A stretch of 31,300 nucleotides of DNA, from the IMG/VR virus record IMGVR_UViG_3300044678_001328, positions 1 to 31,300 of that record. One strand, 5' to 3'. Positions 5,809 to 31,300 of the stretch are shown here, in pieces; positions within the stretch are counted from its first letter, which is position 1; each line of letters opens with the position of its first letter. The position numbers and the translations under genes are program-made. Source of the stretch: a virus. The notes under the pieces were generated by a model. That model had not been told where the DNA came from. It ran no database searches and saw only the letters and a program-made list of their open reading frames with translations.

Positions 5809-5862
5809 AGTAGAATAACATTGGATTGTTGAAAGACAGTTCTGTGTGTGTCCGTTCATGTA

Positions 5863-5918: not shown

Positions 5919-6269
5919 ATGGATAGAAAACTCTCGCCACCAGAAGCAATGATTTCCGCTCTTAAGAAAGGGATGGAATTACACAAGATGGGACTCTCAG
6001 GAAATGGATTGCAACCTGATACTGTTACATGGGCAAAACGGTTTATCGCTGGAGATGATGCAACACCAGAAAAGATAGCCAAGGGTAACAAGTGGTGGGG
6101 TCGAAATGAGAGGTTCTTGAAAGAGCCAGACAAGTCTCCTGCAATGGTCGCTGCCCTACTTTGGGGTGGGGCTTCTGGACGAGACTGGTTCCGAGCCATG
6201 TTTGAAGAAATGAACCACGAAAAGAAAGAAAAAAAGATGGGCTACAAAGATATGGAAGATAAGTCTTAG
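5919..6269 (+). CDS. Phage protein with WGG motif, isolated cassette (116 aa)
   Basis: The product opens LSPPEAMISALKKGMELHKM, continues GNGLQPDTVTWAKRFIAGDD and ends AALLWGGASGRDWFRAMFEE, with a Lys/Glu-rich tail. I recall this order, a helical G-x-x-L-x-x-x-T-v-x-x-A-x-x-i-a-x-G block followed by W-G-G-x-x-G-x-x-W, as a small domain of unknown function seen alone or fused to other proteins in many phages. It probably binds DNA or protein, but no role is settled. I chose the ATG at 5919, the first one after the upstream terminator; a TTG at 5826 would read through the hairpin. No clear ribosome site is visible. The gene lies between two terminators, like a moron. Confidence 0.75.
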   Translation: MDRKLSPPEAMISALKKGMELHKMGLSGNGLQPDTVTWAKRFIAGDDATPEKIAKGNKWWGRNERFLKEPDKSPAMVAALLWGGASGRDWFRAMFEEMNHEKKEKKMGYKDMEDKS

Positions 6270-26282: not shown

Positions 26283-26504
26283 TCACCCCTGCCGTCTGTC
26301 TTGCAGTAACAAGTCTATTTTAGCCTCAATCTTTGCAACTTGTATAGGGAGGTTCTTCAAATCAGTATGTCCAGCCTCTAATTGCTTAACTCTATTCTGC
26401 AATGTACCCGTCCAAGCACTACCTGTAAGGATAGCTAATATCCAATGCCACGAGGTGTTCAAGAAGTGGAGAATTGCCGAGTCGTTAGAGGGGTCAGTTG
26501 CCAT
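26283..26504 (-). CDS. Membrane-anchored coiled-coil protein, lysis cluster (73 aa)
   Basis: One hydrophobic segment near residues 11-30 (ILHFLNTSWHWILAILTGSA) is followed by an amphipathic helix with heptad spacing (LQNRVKQLEAGHTDLKNLPI, VAKIEAKIDLLLQ) and a basic end. This resembles small N-anchored i-spanin-like or XhlA-like proteins that act with holins and endolysins. AGGAT lies before the ATG. It lies between the endolysin and the phosphoesterase, with its TGA directly in frame with the latter. Spanin or holin-accessory role is inferred from layout. Confidence 0.72.
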   Translation of the reverse strand: MATDPSNDSAILHFLNTSWHWILAILTGSAWTGTLQNRVKQLEAGHTDLKNLPIQVAKIEAKIDLLLQDRRQG

Positions 26505-26513
26505 AATAATATC

Positions 26514-27059
26514 CTATAGTTTGATGAAGTGCGTCCATGCAGAGCGTAGGCGTGAACGTCTATAGCATCCACCACCATCTCGCTGAGAACCCGTAACTCC
26601 AGATGAGGTATTGCCCTCGATGGAGTTCATGTAGTACGTCCCTGACGTTACTACGATACCCATGTGGTTTCCACCTGCCTTGAGCCATAAGCACAGGTCA
26701 CCCCTTTTAGGGTCATTAGTAATTCTCCCATTTGTCTCTGCCCACTTATGCCACTGGGCAACAGCAGCTGATGCTCTATCAGAAAGTCCAATCTGTTCTA
26801 CCTTGGCAACATCACAACAAAACTCAATCATGGCGGCACACCAAGGATAACCTTCTTCTAGTTTTACGGCTCCAAGGATAGCCTCTATCCATTCTCCATG
26901 ATTATTCTCTCCTTCCTCTCGAACCTTGATGTCATCAGCTAGAACGGCAGCGGCAAGCAGTACACGTTCACTTTTATCTAGGTCGTAGTAGTTAGGGTAT
27001 CTCACAAGAAGAATATTCCTCACTCTTGCCATTGCATCAGAAGTAGTCATTTTGGACAA
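26514..27059 (-). CDS. CHAP-type endolysin (181 aa)
   Basis: A cell-wall hydrolase. The catalytic triad expected of CHAP/NlpC-type amidase-peptidases is visible: Cys74 in YPWCAAMIEFCC, His132 in GGNHMGIVV and Asn150 in SIEGNTSSG. The N-terminal 60 residues are helical and have no signal peptide, so escape should depend on the holin. There is no separate wall-binding domain. Start choice is uncertain: TTG at 27059 lies 11 bases after GAGGAA, while the ATG at 27050 would be 20 bases away. It is the first gene of the leftward unit, so it may be made early in late transcription and held by the membrane. Confidence 0.87.
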   Translation of the reverse strand: MSKMTTSDAMARVRNILLVRYPNYYDLDKSERVLLAAAVLADDIKVREEGENNHGEWIEAILGAVKLEEGYPWCAAMIEFCCDVAKVEQIGLSDRASAAVAQWHKWAETNGRITNDPKRGDLCLWLKAGGNHMGIVVTSGTYYMNSIEGNTSSGVTGSQRDGGGCYRRSRLRSAWTHFIKL

Positions 27060-27099
27060 ATAGAAATACGTTCCTCAAAAGAAAAAAGTACCATTCCCT

Positions 27100-27105
27100 A
27101 TTATA
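27100..27105 (-). promoter_or_regulatory. Leftward late promoter -10 box (candidate)
   Basis: Minus strand TATAAT at 27105-27100, in an AT-rich run and about 40 bases before the endolysin start. No TTGACA-like -35 box lies 16-18 bp upstream; hexamer repeats and the iteron dyad occupy that place. This suggests activator-dependent or alternative use. Confidence 0.5.
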
Positions 27106-27110
27106 TATAT

Positions 27111-27134
27111 ATTTCTGTTTCTGTTTCTGTTTAT
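27111..27134 (-). repeat. Hexamer tandem repeat, four units of A(T/G)AAA(C/T)
   Basis: Read on the minus strand from 27134: ATAAAC, AGAAAC, AGAAAC, AGAAAT. The array starts three bases after the dyad at 27138-27158. The same order, dyad then 3 nt then hexamers, recurs on the plus strand at 28413-28466. Confidence 0.85.
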
Positions 27135-27137
27135 AGG

Positions 27138-27158
27138 AGGGTAGGTATAAGCTACCCT
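27138..27158. repeat. Inverted iteron dyad, copy 1 (21 bp)
   Basis: AGGGTAG (27138-27144) is inverted against CTACCCT (27152-27158) with a 7-bp spacer GTATAAG. The right arm is also the core of the first unit of the adjacent iteron array. Copy 2 at 28413 differs only in three spacer bases. Confidence 0.85.
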
Positions 27159-27183
27159 TAAGCTACCCTTAGGCTAGCCTTAT
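27151..27183. repeat. Iteron array 1, three 11-bp units
   Basis: GCTACCCTTAA, GCTACCCTTAG and GCTAGCCTTAT follow each other with no gap. The 11-bp period is about one helical turn, so bound proteins would lie on one face. Likely binding sites for the replication initiator encoded at 30253. Confidence 0.85.
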
Positions 27184-27319
27184 GTATATAATTTGAACCT
27201 AAAACTAATCAAATATGTAATACAAAGTATATATACTTATACTAAAAAAAATTAGAAAATGAAAGTAAAAAAACAGAAACAAAACAACTAGCTATACGCT
27301 AGTCGAAACATAGCCATAG
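27184..27319. other. AT-rich stretch between iteron arrays (unwinding element candidate)
   Basis: The 136 bp between the two arrays consist almost wholly of A and T in its first 110 bp, with A-runs of 7-8 and a perfect palindrome AAGTATATATACTT at 27226-27239. Such a stretch next to iterons is the usual DNA unwinding element of phage and plasmid origins. Confidence 0.6.
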
Positions 27320-27363
27320 GCTACCCTTAGGCTACCCTCAAGCTACCCTATAGCTACCCTTAT
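27320..27363. repeat. Iteron array 2, four 11-bp units
   Basis: GCTACCCTTAG, GCTACCCTCAA, GCTACCCTATA and GCTACCCTTAT follow head to tail in the same orientation as array 1. The last three positions vary, while GCTACCCT is constant. Confidence 0.88.
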
Positions 27364-27508
27364 CTACTACCTAAAATGTACTGTATGCCAAATGTGTAGT
27401 ATAAGTGATTTTGATGGTTAAAAATTTTATGGTGTGGGTAACGCTAACCGCTCCGCTCCTTCTCCACCCCCCCCCCCTAACCTTACAATCCCATGCCAAC
27501 ACTATATA

Positions 27509-27524
27509 TATATGCATGCATATA
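27509..27524. repeat. Perfect 16-bp palindrome
   Basis: TATATGCATGCATATA reads the same on both strands. It lies in alternating purine-pyrimidine sequence and could be a dimeric protein site or a cruciform/Z-DNA-prone spot. Confidence 0.8.
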
Positions 27525-27684
27525 CACTCTATATATACGGCCTCATACCTGGTCATTCACATTCTAGCTATAGATAGACTTGATAGTATAAGACTCAATA
27601 CTTGGCAGTTAGGATTACATAGCTCATCATCGAACCTATCCGCACAATCTAGATCGATAAGCGTACAATTAACCTAAAATGCAC

Positions 27685-27710
27685 TTTTTTAGACTTTTTT
27701 TTACTTTTTT
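27685..27710 (+). promoter_or_regulatory. Phased T-tracts upstream of the early promoter
   Basis: T6 (27685-27690), T8 (27695-27702) and T6 (27705-27710) have centres 11 and 9 bp apart, close to the helical repeat, and end 11 bp before the -35 box. Such tracts bend DNA and act as UP elements for RNA polymerase alpha. Confidence 0.7.
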
Positions 27711-27721
27711 CTATAACACTG

Positions 27722-27751
27722 TTGACAATCTGCCAAACATAAGCGTATCAT
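27722..27751 (+). promoter_or_regulatory. Early rightward sigma-70 promoter
   Basis: TTGACA (27722-27727), an 18-bp spacer, then TATCAT (27746-27751). Expected transcription starts near 27758, about 30 bases before the first early gene at 27790. The -10 box lies in the 13-mer ATAAGCGTATCAT, which has relatives at 27657 and 28955. Confidence 0.8.
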
Positions 27752-27789
27752 TGTTCATGAGTTCAATTTTGGGCTTATAAAGGAAACGC

Positions 27790-27996
27790 ATGGAAAAGAG
27801 AAAATCATTCTACAACTCAACCACACGGGAACGTGACATCAAAACCCTGATTACCCACATTATGGAATTGGAATCCATGTGGGAAGGTAACGAAAAAATC
27901 ACCATAGGTAAGGGGACACTTATGACACTTGCCGATCTCGCTAAGTCCATTGATGAAAAATCAGCGGATGGAATTTGGATTACCAAAAAGAACTAA
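27790..27996 (+). CDS. First early protein, 68 aa, unknown function
   Basis: The first gene after the early promoter, with AAAGGAAACGC before the ATG. The product begins with a basic segment (EKRKSFYNSTTRERDIKTLI), then helices (THIMELESMWEGNEKI, GKGTLMTLADLAKSIDEKSA) and ends WITKKN. It is small, charged and soluble, as expected for an early host-modifying protein. No family recognised. Being promoter-proximal it would be made first and in quantity. Confidence 0.8.
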   Translation: MEKRKSFYNSTTRERDIKTLITHIMELESMWEGNEKITIGKGTLMTLADLAKSIDEKSADGIWITKKN

Positions 27997-28012
27997 CATA
28001 AGGAAACATAAC

Positions 28013-28222
28013 ATGAAATACATGAACGAACATGACGCAATTGAAGCATATGAGGATATGCTTAACGACTGTTACCCTATGGCGGATATCTGCGGGTATA
28101 AGGTGCAACCTGCATACGCTCTTAAACGCTTCGATCCAACAGCCTACCGCTGTGGGTTTATTGACTGGTTGGACTCTGAGGGGCTAACTACCGATGAGAG
28201 TGAAGCGGACGAGGTGGCATAA
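28013..28222 (+). CDS. Acidic early protein, paralogue A (69 aa)
   Basis: I placed the start at the ATG at 28013 behind AAGGAAACATAAC; the frame is open to 27929, but those residues overlap the first gene. The core DAIEAYEDMLNDCYPMADIC with ALKRFDPTAYRCGFIDWLD is matched by the protein at 29011, so the two are duplicates. The L-K-x-x-D-P-T-A-Y-x-x-x-F-x-x-W-L-D motif is common in small early proteins of many phages; function is unknown. The acidic tail (TTDESEADEVA) is strongly charged and could be a DNA mimic, but that is speculation. Confidence 0.82.
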   Translation: MKYMNEHDAIEAYEDMLNDCYPMADICGYKVQPAYALKRFDPTAYRCGFIDWLDSEGLTTDESEADEVA

Positions 28223-28223
28223 G

Positions 28224-28403
28224 ATGACGCGAACATTCACGCAATCAGAAATAACCGTAGAGCGCATGATTAACGGGGGCTATAGTCTATCCGTCATCAC
28301 TGACACGGGTAACTATTACCGTATGCGTTACTATTTCTACTCACGGAAGGACGCCATGCGGCAATTCTCGCAATACGTCAGGGAACAAGAACAATCTGCA
28401 TAA
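28224..28403 (+). CDS. Hypothetical protein, 59 aa
   Basis: The ATG lies one base after the preceding stop, behind GAGGTGG within the previous gene. The product has strands (FTQSEITVERMINGGYSLSV, TDTGNYYRMRYYFYS) and a final helix RKDAMRQFSQYVREQEQ. This beta-beta-beta-alpha pattern with many Tyr and Arg suits a small nucleic-acid-binding protein, but no family is assigned. A longer start at 28194 would overlap paralogue A and adds basic residues unlike the rest. Confidence 0.75.
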   Translation: MTRTFTQSEITVERMINGGYSLSVITDTGNYYRMRYYFYSRKDAMRQFSQYVREQEQSA

Positions 28404-28412
28404 CCTAGCCTT

Positions 28413-28466
28413 AGGGTAGGTGACAGCTACCCTGACATAAACATAAACAGAAACATAAACATAAAG
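28413..28466 (+). repeat. Inverted iteron dyad copy 2 with hexamer repeats
   Basis: AGGGTAG (28413-28419) and CTACCCT (28427-28433) flank GTGACAG. After three bases follow ATAAAC, ATAAAC, AGAAAC, ATAAAC, ATAAAG (28437-28466). The design is the same as 27158-27111 but in the opposite direction. The last unit carries the AAGGA ribosome site of the gene at 28478. No T-run follows the dyad, so it is not a plain terminator. Confidence 0.88.
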
Positions 28467-28477
28467 GAACTAAACAT

Positions 28478-28735
28478 ATGAAACAATTCGACATATACAT
28501 AAGCAAGTCGCCATACCTTAAAATCATGGCTCTAACCGATGCAGGTATCAAAGCCTATAACGAGCTAGCCTATCAATGCTTGGAAGCAGGGATGACGATT
28601 CACGACATAACCATACACGACCGAGAACGCTTAGTAGGTTCGCTACGAAAGGCAGGTTACACCGTGACGTCAATCATGCCTAAGCATGAACTCAACATGA
28701 GCGATGACGATATCATGCAGGAGCTAGGGCTATGA
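28478..28735 (+). CDS. Hypothetical protein, 85 aa
   Basis: Begins after AAAGGAACTAAACAT, at the end of the dyad-hexamer element. The product has a mixed opening (KQFDIYISKSPYLKIMALTD), a helix AGIKAYNELAYQCLEAGMTI, a short strand (DITIHDRERL), another helix and a C-terminal DDDIMQELGL. It looks like a small alpha-beta protein. The stop overlaps the next start (ATGA). No family recognised. Confidence 0.77.
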   Translation: MKQFDIYISKSPYLKIMALTDAGIKAYNELAYQCLEAGMTIHDITIHDRERLVGSLRKAGYTVTSIMPKHELNMSDDDIMQELGL

Positions 28736-28938
28736 ACGTAGTAGACAGAGTTAAACAGCACCAGGAACTTCAGCGAAAGTATCCACAACTGACGCCCGAT
28801 GATATCGAACTCATGATCATCAGCGGAACATTTCAACCCGAACCAAAACCCAAAAGCCAGGGAATGACCTGGGCGGATGGCTTTTTGATGCTATTTCTGG
28901 CAGCAATCGTCATTTTTGTAGGAATTTTATTAAAATAG
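28732..28938 (+). CDS. C-tail-anchored small membrane protein (68 aa)
   Basis: Coupled to the gene before by ATGA. The first 45 residues are soluble and charged (DRVKQHQELQRKYPQLTPDD, EPKPKSQGMTW). Residues 50-67 (GFLMLFLAAIVIFVGILL) form one transmembrane helix ending in Lys. This places the N-terminal part in the cytoplasm. Early phage membrane proteins of this design often interfere with host functions or superinfection, but no role can be shown here. Confidence 0.8.
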   Translation: MNVVDRVKQHQELQRKYPQLTPDDIELMIISGTFQPEPKPKSQGMTWADGFLMLFLAAIVIFVGILLK

Positions 28939-28954
28939 TAAATTCTGACGAACA

Positions 28955-28967
28955 ATAAGCGTATAAT
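28955..28967 (+). promoter_or_regulatory. Second early promoter element ATAAGCGTATAAT (candidate)
   Basis: A perfect TATAAT (28962-28967) preceded by ATAAGCG, the same context as the -10 of the main early promoter (27739-27751) and of a third copy at 27657-27669. No TTGACA-like box at 16-18 bp. It lies 43 bases before the ATG at 29011. Confidence 0.6.
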
Positions 28968-29010
28968 AGATATACGCACAAAAGCGTAACACAAAAGGAC
29001 ACAAAAGAAC

Positions 29011-29235
29011 ATGAACAACATCGACAGAACGGACGAACACGGATATACCTTCATCAGCGAAGATGACGCCATTGAGCGATTCAATGATATGCTAGACGAG
29101 TGTTTCCCGCTGGTGCAATTCGGTAGCCTGAGTTACTCACCATCAGAGGTACTTAAGAGGGTTGACCCAACAGCGTACCATTGTGAGTTCCTCAATTGGC
29201 TAGATTGCGAAGAATTGACCATTGACGAGGACTAA
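29011..29235 (+). CDS. Acidic early protein, paralogue B (74 aa)
   Basis: Behind AAAAGGACACAAAAGAAC. It has its own upstream promoter-like element at 28955. The core DDAIERFNDMLDECFPLVQF with VLKRVDPTAYHCEFLNWLD aligns along its whole length with the 69-aa protein at 28013, and both end in an acidic tail. It has five extra residues at the N-terminus. The pair arose by duplication within the early unit and has since diverged strongly. Function unknown; the motif is widespread among phage early genes. Confidence 0.83.
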   Translation: MNNIDRTDEHGYTFISEDDAIERFNDMLDECFPLVQFGSLSYSPSEVLKRVDPTAYHCEFLNWLDCEELTIDED

Positions 29236-29290
29236 GGACAAAATCACGACACAACCAGGGGCAGTAATGCCACAACCAGGAGAACAAAAC

Positions 29291-29830
29291 ATGAAAACAC
29301 AGACACCACAAAACGCACTCACCACCGAAGCTATCAGCAAGATAACCGACAACCTACGCAAGGAGAACGAGACGAGCCTAGACGCAAAAGTTCAGGCACA
29401 AAATACCGCCGCCTTCATTGCGAACGAGTTATACCCCGTATTTAGGGCTATCTTTGAGCCAATGGTAGGGCAGAAAATAATCAAGGCTAACGGCTCACTA
29501 CTTGCAAAAGTTGAGGAGCAACTACCCAAAATCCAAAACATTTCAGGGGTGCACGTATACAGGCAAAATAGCGTATTTTGTACCTTGTGCTGGGTTGTAA
29601 AGGTATCGTGTGCTGTTAAAGATAGCCCATTTTGGGAACATAAAGAGGTTCATGTAACTATCGGGTTAATTGATGGCGTGGTGCTCGGTAAATTGGTCGA
29701 TGAGATAGACAAGAAAAGAGATGACTACGACGTAAACGAGATACGACGGCTTCAGGAAGTTTACAGGGCGAAAATGGAAGAGGCAAGACAAGCAGAACGA
29801 GCCCTTTCCCCCTTCAGATACAACGATTGA
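29291..29830 (+). CDS. Hypothetical protein, 179 aa
   Basis: I prefer the ATG at 29291, eight bases after AGGAG in a 20-base leader that is repeated exactly before the next gene; ATG 29267 and TTG 29222 are longer options. The protein starts with helices (TTEAISKITDNLRKENETSL, NTAAFIANELYPVFRAIFEP), has a strand-rich centre (GVHVYRQNSVFCTLCWVVKV, VHVTIGLIDGVVLGKLVD) and a charged coiled-coil end (VNEIRRLQEVYRAKMEEARQ). No catalytic motif is visible. It may be a DNA-metabolism accessory from its place before the replication genes. Confidence 0.77.
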   Translation: MKTQTPQNALTTEAISKITDNLRKENETSLDAKVQAQNTAAFIANELYPVFRAIFEPMVGQKIIKANGSLLAKVEEQLPKIQNISGVHVYRQNSVFCTLCWVVKVSCAVKDSPFWEHKEVHVTIGLIDGVVLGKLVDEIDKKRDDYDVNEIRRLQEVYRAKMEEARQAERALSPFRYND

Positions 29831-29854: not shown

Positions 29855-30112
29855 ATGAAACGAGCAAATAGAACAACGTCTGAAGTACTTTCAGATATGA
29901 TGGACATAATAGCAAGGAACCTAGCCGATGGACTGTTAACAGAGGAAGGATTATTTAGCAATGACTTCCGCGACCTTATGGGTGATTCACTCATAGTTAC
30001 CCAAAACATTGACGGTATGACCACGAAAGAGACGGCAGAATGCCTAGCCATTCATACCATTTACACGAGAGCAATGACCATCTTGGAGGAACGAAACAAT
30101 GCCAAAGCCTAA
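29855..30112 (+). CDS. Hypothetical helical protein, 85 aa
   Basis: Preceded by the repeated leader CAGGAGAACAAAACATGAAA. The product is mostly helical: SEVLSDMMDIIARNLADGLL, SNDFRDLMGDSLIVTQN, TAECLAIHTIYTRAMTILEE. There is no membrane segment and no known motif. Its 3' end carries the GGAGGA ribosome site of the next gene, which overlaps it by 14 bp. Function unknown. Confidence 0.75.
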   Translation: MKRANRTTSEVLSDMMDIIARNLADGLLTEEGLFSNDFRDLMGDSLIVTQNIDGMTTKETAECLAIHTIYTRAMTILEERNNAKA

Positions 30113-30260
30113 GGGCGAACCCCGAAAAACAATCGGTATCAATTTGCCCGTCAGGTACTGGTTGTGGCTCAAGGTGCAGCCCGAACCTATGAGGGCATTG
30201 ATAATGAGATTGATTGAGCAAGAGATGAGAAGGATAAAGGAGATTAAAGACCGTGAGTAA
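30099..30260 (+). CDS. Ribbon-helix-helix-like small protein (53 aa)
   Basis: Supported by GGAGGA eight bases before its ATG and by overlaps at both ends. A basic start (PKPKGEPRK) is followed by TIGINLPVRYWLWL, a strand with alternating hydrophobic residues, then two helices (PEPMRALIMRLIEQEMRRIK and a Lys/Asp end). This order, strand-helix-helix in about 45 residues, is that of Arc/CopG repressors. It would bind DNA as a dimer. Its place directly before the initiator suggests control of replication genes. Fold by pattern only. Confidence 0.72.
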   Translation: MPKPKGEPRKTIGINLPVRYWLWLKVQPEPMRALIMRLIEQEMRRIKEIKDRE

Positions 30261-30906
30261 GACAACCCCGACAGGGTGGTTCAAGTTCTATCATCGGGAC
30301 TGGGTAAGTAGTTCGACCATACGCAAGATGTCAATGACCGCTCAAGGTATCTACCTCAATCTGTTGCTACTTCAATGGGAGGATGGACAAGTGCCCGACA
30401 CACTAGAAGAGGCGGGAATGATATTGAGGCTGACAAATGAGGAAATAGACGCCTTTAAGCCCTACTTCTCAAGCCTATTCCCTGACGGTCAAAACCCTAG
30501 GCTCGCACTAGAACGCTCGAAGTCCGTTGAGTACATTGAGAAGCAGAAAAGTCACGGCAAAGCTAAGGGTAGTCCAAGGGTAGCCCCCACTAAGCCAGAA
30601 GGTAGGCAGAAGGTAGCCAAATTTGAACCGCCAACCGTTGAAGAGGTAGCGGGTCATATGCTAACCAGAAGATGGCGAAACCATGAACGCAAGGCTGAAC
30701 AATTCGTAGCATGGTATGAAGGTAAGGGATGGAAGGTAGGCAAGGCATTGATGAAGGATTGGAAGTCAGCCGTCATAACTTGGGAAGGCAAGATGGCAGA
30801 TGATGACTTTCTACCTAAGCCTAAGACGAGTCACAAGCCTGGTGAACTTGTCGAAGGTATTCACTATCAGGTCTTGCCTAGTGGCGAACGGGTGGATATG
30901 CTATGA
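30253..30906 (+). CDS. Replication initiator / helicase-loader protein, DUF1376-like (217 aa)
   Basis: The N-terminal part, GWFKFYHRDWVSSSTIRKMS with AQGIYLNLLLLQWEDGQVPD, is the signature of the DUF1376 winged-helix group found in phage replication proteins. The C-terminal part ERKAEQFVAWYEGKGWKVGK with DWKSAVITW resembles the DnaT/O-like domain that contacts the helicase. Between them, residues about 95-130 form a Lys/Pro/Gly linker. The start is a GTG, overlapping the previous gene by 8 bp. The stop joins dnaB by ATGA. I infer that it binds the 11-bp iterons and loads DnaB. The linker DNA itself carries phased iteron-like cores. Confidence 0.85.
   Translation: MSKTTPTGWFKFYHRDWVSSSTIRKMSMTAQGIYLNLLLLQWEDGQVPDTLEEAGMILRLTNEEIDAFKPYFSSLFPDGQNPRLALERSKSVEYIEKQKSHGKAKGSPRVAPTKPEGRQKVAKFEPPTVEEVAGHMLTRRWRNHERKAEQFVAWYEGKGWKVGKALMKDWKSAVITWEGKMADDDFLPKPKTSHKPGELVEGIHYQVLPSGERVDML
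30565..30616. repeat. Iteron-like cores inside the initiator gene, 11-bp phased
   Basis: AAGGGTAG at 30565 and 30576, and GAAGGTAG at 30598 and 30609, all fall on one 11-bp grid (offsets 0, 11, 33, 44). They are the reverse complement of the origin iteron core CTACCCTT. The first two extended decamers (TAAGGGTAGT, CAAGGGTAGC) match the origin unit in nine of ten bases. Confidence 0.75.
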
Positions 30907-31300
30907 ATCCGCACAACCTAGACGCTGAAAGGTGTGTACTTGGGTCGTGTATCCTAAGCACGAAGGCAAGTAGTAAGGCTATCGCACTACTTAAAGCAGA
31001 CGACTTCTTTCTACCTGCTCATGGTCTGATTTTTGAAAGTATCAAGGCTACGTTATCACAAGGCAGAGAAGTAGACTTTGTAACCGTCCGCAATGGGCTA
31101 GGCTCGAAGTTAGTAGATGCTGGTGGCATTGACTACCTGATGCAAGTTGCGGAATATGTACCTTCGGCAGCGAACATAGGAACCTATTGTGAAATAGTCA
31201 AGGACAAAGCAACAAGACGCACAATCATTCAATCTGCTAAAGGCATTGTATCCCAAGCGGTAGATGATGACGTGCCAACAAGCGAGCTAGTTCTCAACTA
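30903..31300 (+). CDS. dnaB: Replicative DNA helicase, DnaB family (5' part; continues at base 1)
   Basis: The N-terminal domain of the helicase whose ATPase part lies at 1-1037. It begins NPHNLDAERCVLGSCILSTK and continues DDFFLPAHGLIFESIKATLS, the standard N-terminal DnaB helical domain that forms the hexamer collar and contacts primase and loader. The ATG overlaps the initiator stop (ATGA), so both are translated together. The last 127 bases of the window repeat bases 1-127, so the gene should be counted once when the circle is closed. Confidence 0.95.
   Translation, partial: MNPHNLDAERCVLGSCILSTKASSKAIALLKADDFFLPAHGLIFESIKATLSQGREVDFVTVRNGLGSKLVDAGGIDYLMQVAEYVPSAANIGTYCEIVKDKATRRTIIQSAKGIVSQAVDDDVPTSELVLN
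31174..31300. repeat. 127-bp terminal direct repeat, right copy
   Basis: Identical to bases 1-127. See the left copy; it most likely reflects the overlap of a circular contig. Confidence 0.95.

Follow-up and report, generated by a model that had tools for sequence, protein, structure and literature searches.

In phage lambda, iterons in gene O stand beside an A+T-rich region in which nearly all purines lie on one strand (PMC5043065). In the iteron plasmids F, P1, RK2 and pSC101, direct iterons in helical phase adjoin an AT-rich region that opens (PMC5043065); the opening region of RK2 contains short 13-mer repeats, and initiators may bind inverted repeats as operators (PMC5043065, PMC13028717). 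In the F plasmid, RepE dimers bind inverted repeats in the promoter region of their own gene and monomers bind the direct iterons (PMC13028717). In the basal unwinding system of the B. subtilis oriC, which has DnaA-trios and a DnaD recognition element, the boxes are followed by a short periodic single-strand element, and DnaD reads 5'-TnnT-3' on the other strand (PMC10201434).

The stretch of DNA analysed in this study (the window) is a complete 31300-base viral genome from IMG/VR. It carries a 127-bp direct terminal repeat and is therefore a circular or circularly permuted genome of approximately 31.2 kb. Late genes, including those for an endolysin, a terminase and a portal-like protein, run leftward from 27059, and early genes run rightward from 27790, with an initiator/helicase-loader gene at 30253-30906 in their path that is followed by genes for a DnaB-type helicase (30903-31173 and 1-1037) and for Gam-like, Rad52-like and SSB proteins. 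A search with TerL found only a 43%-identical stretch in one Paraburkholderia genome, and no nucleotide match to positions 26401-29400 was found among named phages. The early region also encodes two paralogous small proteins at 28023-28222 and 29011-29235 (DAIEAYEDML...DPTAYRCGFIDWLDSE and DAIERFNDML...DPTAYHCEFLNWLDCE) and, just upstream of the initiator gene at 30099-30260, a small basic protein of 53 amino acids in which a ribbon-helix-helix is possible by eye and for which a family search gave no significant match. The features on which our argument depends are as follows.

27111-27134, minus strand: left hexamer array, ATAAAC (AGAAAC)2 AGAAAT, continuing into ATATATATATAATA; proposed origin-opening element.
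27138-27158: left dyad, AGGGTAG GTATAAG CTACCCT; kept in the nearest relative, L123.
27151-27183, minus strand: iteron cluster A, 11-bp direct repeats TTAAGGGTAGC, CTAAGGGTAGC and ATAAGGCTAGC, 5' of the left array on the A-rich strand.
27185-27300: AT-rich stretch between clusters A and B, holding the least stable 60 bp of the genome.
27320-27363, minus strand: iteron cluster B, four 11-bp repeats of the CTAAGGGTAGC type, 98-100% identical in L123.
28404-28433: right dyad, AGGGTAG GTGACAG CTACCCT (28413-28433), with its flank CCTAGCCTTAGGGTAGGTGACAGCTACCCT; identical in L123; proposed initiator-binding site.
28437-28466, plus strand: right hexamer array, ATAAAC ATAAAC AGAAAC ATAAAC ATAAAG; altered in L123.
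30253-30906, plus strand: replication initiator/helicase-loader gene with a DUF1376-like N-terminal domain; proposed iteron binder.
30563-30617, plus strand: iterons CTAAGGGTAGT CCAAGGGTAGC ... CAGAAGGTAGC inside the initiator gene, in 11-bp register, with no hexamers.

In its sequence anatomy, this locus is a lambda-type or iteron origin module, unusual in that it stands outside the initiator gene and is partly duplicated in inverted orientation; its hexamer array is one that recurs in the presumed origins of many other phages. As in lambda, the iterons, which are proposed sites of the phage initiator, adjoin an A+T-rich region with purine asymmetry, and in relatives the iterons lie within the initiator gene. 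However, in lambda the iterons are near-perfect inverted repeats of 19 bp to which O dimers bind, whereas the window has 11-bp direct repeats and one dyad; its putative opening region starts with a regular hexamer array, and its module lies outside the initiator gene and is present twice. Phased direct iterons beside an AT-rich region are shared with the iteron plasmids, but here they occur in a phage genome with a DUF1376-like initiator, and the short repeats are 6 nt rather than 13 nt in length. The likeness to the B. subtilis oriC lies in a repeat of short period on one strand that comes a short, constant distance after double-strand binding sites, although the period is 6 nt rather than 3 nt and the initiator belongs to a different family.

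We consider it fairly probable that both elements are binding modules of the phage's own initiator (30253-30906), with the left module (27111-27363) serving as the replication origin and the right one (28404-28466) as a second initiator site. Initiator binding, DNA opening and origin activity, each of which we infer, would be arranged as follows. The N-terminal domain of the initiator, a predicted winged helix, would bind the 11-bp iterons with the core A(A/G)GG(G/C)TAG, the adjoining purine-rich A(T/G)AAAC array would be the start of the DNA that opens, and the DnaB-type helicase (31 kb/1 kb) would then receive the opened strands. The origin would comprise the left module, both iteron clusters and the AT-rich DNA that separates them, and it would be intergenic, not within the initiator gene as in the relatives. 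The right module would be a secondary origin, or an operator or titration site.

The first-pass annotation had described two AGGGTAG-N7-CTACCCT dyads with an A(T/G)AAAC array 3 nt beyond each of them, the two elements having opposite orientations, and this description is confirmed. The dyad and the array are separated by GAC on the right (28434-28436) and by CCT, on the minus strand, on the left (27137-27135). The fifth hexamer of the right array, ATAAAG, ends in G, and the proposed pattern A(T/G)AAA(C/T) therefore does not describe the last hexamer of that array. On the plus strand, the dyads do differ by only three spacer bases; read in the direction of the hexamers, their spacers match at 3 of 7 positions. 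Together, the two elements form inverted arms of 58 nt that are 79% complementary (46/58 matches), and in 60 dinucleotide shuffles the arm matches averaged 31.3 (sd 1.2) and reached 35 at most. These two are the only exact matches to the dyad in the window; with up to 3 mismatches, eight matches are found against an expected 0.81, and most of these are neighbouring direct iterons. The left array contains three exact AAACAG units, for which 0.04 matches are expected even when 3 mismatches are allowed, and the hexamer arrays are 5/6 purine on one strand.

The half-sites of the dyads are copies of the 11-bp iteron core in inverted order. As direct 11-bp repeats, the same core occurs at 27151-27183, 27320-27363 and 30563-30617, all of which the first-pass annotation had missed; the first two of these provide phased direct iterons of the kind known from iteron origins. 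They adjoin unstable, strand-asymmetric, AT-rich DNA. Genome-wide, the 60 bp of lowest stability are 27200-27259, and those of L123 lie at the same place (6178-6237). The 60 bp at 27075-27134, which include the left hexamers, belong to the least stable 0.2% of the genome, and the hexamer regions rank in the top 0.2-0.3% for instability. The cumulative GC skew was not used as an origin test because it is confounded by gene direction and the early operon; its minimum falls at 29.4 kb rather than at 27.2 kb, and L123 and a second relative, L124, have theirs at comparable positions.

An inverted repeat built from iteron half-sites, as in the operator of a RepE-type initiator, is thus present (AGGGTAG-N7-CTACCCT), and the dyads could be transcription operators for an initiator dimer that tune the late leader on the left and, on the right, the early operon leading to the initiator gene. 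This explanation comes close to the idea of the first-pass annotation and is compatible with an adjacent origin. It draws support from the inverted iteron cores in the half-sites, from the RepE precedent in the F plasmid (PMC13028717), from the dyad being the conserved part of the right copy and from a third, hexamer-free dyad between early genes of L123. Nevertheless, a consensus scan, which covers promoters of the sigma-70 type only, recognised none at either dyad, the nearest strong promoter-like site (27722-27751) is approximately 660 bp upstream of the right dyad, and the hexamer arrays and the unstable DNA are left unexplained. We regard the operator explanation as unlikely. The proposed switch of early and late transcription is likewise conjectural: the same scan found no sigma-70-like promoter at either copy, L124 lacks both copies, and the "late promoter" on the left was an assumption of the first-pass annotation. 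In position and sequence, the array has the features of a putative origin element, not of a promoter part. An early promoter-like motif, ATAAGCGTAtaAT, is repeated at 27657, 27739 and 28955 and is also present in L123.

The dyads could also act as RNA hairpins, such as attenuators, terminators or mRNA stabilisers, in the leaders of the flanking genes. The right dyad folds into a 9-bp hairpin with z = -2.2, but the left copy reaches only z = -0.5, neither 27138-27158 nor 28413-28433 has a T-run tail or a terminator call, and no Rfam match was found. Moreover, the arms do not vary between copies and show no compensatory changes, and their core also occurs in direct repeats. We consider a role as RNA hairpins highly improbable. 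An intrinsic terminator, defined as a GC-rich hairpin followed by a T run, was rejected for both dyads.

L123, whose TerL is 99% identical, has both dyads. The noncoding DNA at 27110-27430 is 95-100% identical between the two genomes, compared with 44-80% for most noncoding DNA just beyond it, and 27110-27149, which includes the left array, is 100% identical. Given this conservation, and with the least stable DNA lying between its iteron clusters, we conclude that the left copy (27111-27180, with an extension to 27430) very probably serves as the origin of replication. The right dyad and its 12-bp flank are also unchanged in L123, although the genes to their left have been replaced, whereas the right hexamer array has acquired substitutions and a deletion. 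The expectation that relatives would keep both copies was therefore borne out for the two dyads of L123, but not for its right array and not for L124 (TerL 88% identical), which is without both elements. With respect to gene order, the early genes left of the right dyad (27790-28390 in the window, 6880-5330 in L123) are those replaced, and the conserved block resumes at the right dyad as if at a recombination joint. The third dyad of L123, at 5815-5835, directly follows a stop codon between early genes and has a longer imperfect inverted repeat (AACCTAGCCTTAGGGTAG ... CTACCCTACCTTAAACTAGCC) and no hexamers.

The hexamers could instead be mere A-rich, unstructured translation leaders or products of simple-sequence slippage, with their adjacency to the dyads being coincidental. 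For the right array, this has some appeal: it runs directly into the ribosome-binding site of gene 28478, it is changed in L123, and most (AAACAT)n arrays of other phages are leaders that immediately precede the ATG start codon. The right hexamers may therefore be the A-rich translation leader of gene 28478-28735, and because its dyad is kept while its array is altered, we describe the right copy as a putative second initiator-binding site. The left array, however, stops approximately 50 nt before the next start codon, is fully conserved in L123, and occupies the same place after the same iterons as the coding in-gene arrays of L325-L327, described below. In addition, the hexamer is used in three reading frames, which argues against a peptide-driven origin. 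As an account of both arrays, the leader or slippage explanation thus appears quite improbable to us.

In L124, the gene of the initiator homologue contains five or six 11-bp GTTCAAC repeats that are directly followed by (AAACAG)7 and ATATAAAAGATTTATAAAA; this exact repeat pair is found within the initiator gene and nowhere else in the genome. Judged from these repeats, the arrangement is anatomically that of an in-gene, lambda-type origin, and it uses the hexamer of the intergenic elements in the window. A motif in the divergent intergenic region, TTTATGGTG-GGGTAACGCTAACCGC...C-tract (window 27429-27480, L123 7250-7210, L124 7025-6970), is kept even in L124, where the iterons differ. The last IMG/VR scan added four loci (L325-L328) with initiator N-domains that are 52-53% identical to that of the window. 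L325-L327 carry the iteron of the window (AAGGGTAGC; CTAAGGCTAGGTCAAGGGTAGC; AAGGCTAGGTCAAGGGTAGC) at 11-bp spacing in the initiator linker, where it precedes AACAGAAACAGAAACA (AAACAG repeats) and is confined to the initiator gene within loci of 11-12 kb; in L328, AAGGCTAGC repeats precede ACAACA. All other initiator homologues have GTTCAAC iterons. Iterons lie within the initiator gene in L124, L325-L327, L158 and L166, and the lambda arrangement, with the putative origin inside the initiator gene, is seen in relatives but not in the window. On the 3' side of the iterons inside the initiator gene of the window (30563-30617), the DNA is stable and has no hexamers, as would suit a remnant or an accessory copy in the position that the presumed origin occupies in relatives; since these iterons are still present, the origin could also remain in the initiator gene.

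The type of iteron, AGGGTAG or GTTCAAC, maps to a single split of the N-domain tree with a support of 87/90. L158, which has GTTCAAC iterons despite an N-domain that is 48% identical to that of the window, falls on the right side of this split. An initiator with a predicted specificity matched to the iterons is therefore encoded on the same replicon. This co-variation, though indirect, points specifically to recognition of the iteron by the initiator, and because the iteron co-varies with its DNA-binding domain, the initiator is the best candidate for both copies. The suggestion that one protein serves both copies is in this way supported; the small HTH/RHH proteins that had also been proposed are unsupported, with nothing for or against them. 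The product of 30253-30906 is assigned by PHROG as a primosomal or DnaD-like helicase loader, and PF07120 matches below the cut-off. Its AlphaFold model has a mean pLDDT of 71.6, and Foldseek returned no match at E <= 0.001. A further structure comparison gave weak winged-helix matches, including ORC2, the DnaD N-domain and plasmid Rep initiators; all have Z < 5, and the assignment of the N-terminal domain as a winged helix is therefore tentative. Relatives of the initiator in Vibrio, Porphyromonas and Flavonifractor phages have mainly the C-terminal domain in common with it, and no clear AAACAG array was found in named phages with related C-terminal domains.

The first-pass annotation had also proposed a search of metagenomic contigs. 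The composite pattern CTACCCT-N3-ATAAACAKAAACA had a sole match, the contig of L123, and the composite element is therefore lineage-restricted. The bare dyad pattern occurs in at least 120 IMG/VR stretches, many of which are unrelated hairpins, and it was dropped as a family marker because of this lack of specificity.

The hexamer itself is more widespread. An exact (AAACAG)4 scan of IMG/VR returned 115 stretches, and in 55 of them the array lies in a replication-initiation gene, meaning a gene for a replication-initiation, O-like, primosomal or DnaD-like helicase-loader protein according to PHROGs or Pfam; cluster representatives were assigned directly, and all others through the BLAST cluster to which they belong. 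The synonymous (AAACTG)4, which encodes the same peptide, was in an initiator in 5 of 38 IMG/VR stretches (Fisher p = 1e-4 versus AAACAG). Of 37 initiators, a count that leaves out 18 near-identical ones with irregularly spaced GTAACG repeats, 27 have iteron-like tandem repeats (z >= 4) within the 80 bp immediately 5' of the array; immediately 3' of it, 1 of 35 has them. The commonest period of these repeats is 11 bp. The arrays are translated as TETE, RNRN (L235), NINI (L315, AAACAT type) or KHKH (L334, AAACAC type), and because the encoded peptide differs, the hexamer array is conserved as DNA and not as peptide. In L315, the AAACAT form stands directly after iterons inside the initiator gene. 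Two other layouts were seen. The initiator genes of L165 and 17 near-identical loci (L140, L161, L163 and others) have GTAACGCGTTAC (inverted) and direct GTAACG repeats, then (AAACAG)n, a dyad-plus-direct-repeat layout resembling that of the window. In L184 (514-2013, minus strand), GTGACG repeats and then (AAACAG)n lie at the 5' end of a ParB-like/methyltransferase gene, and this site is possibly an origin outside an initiator gene.

In the literature searched, in which subscription journals were thinly covered, we found no report of an AAACAN hexamer as an origin element. It is tempting, though on balance doubtful, to regard (AAACAN)n as a sequence-specific opening or strand-recognition element shared by origins in many unrelated phages, where it would usually be concealed within the initiator gene as a TETETE linker and be read on one strand by the initiator or the helicase loader. 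In the lineage of the window, the module would have moved out of the gene and would now stand in two copies of opposite orientation, each of which could load the helicase for one fork. Many of the array-bearing phage proteins are DnaD-like helicase loaders, and the complement (CTGTTT)n, as read from the sequence, contains 5'-TnnT-3' motifs; the parallel in single-strand recognition with the DnaD element is a lead and only an idea.

Phage origins are rarely mapped, and a recurring signature of iterons followed by an AAACAN array would make it possible to find origins, together with the initiators that match them, in uncultured phages from sequence alone. The TETETE linkers of many phage initiators would then be explained as a constraint at the DNA level. 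The lineage of the window is a natural experiment in this respect: the module stands outside the gene, and its parts can therefore be changed without touching the protein.
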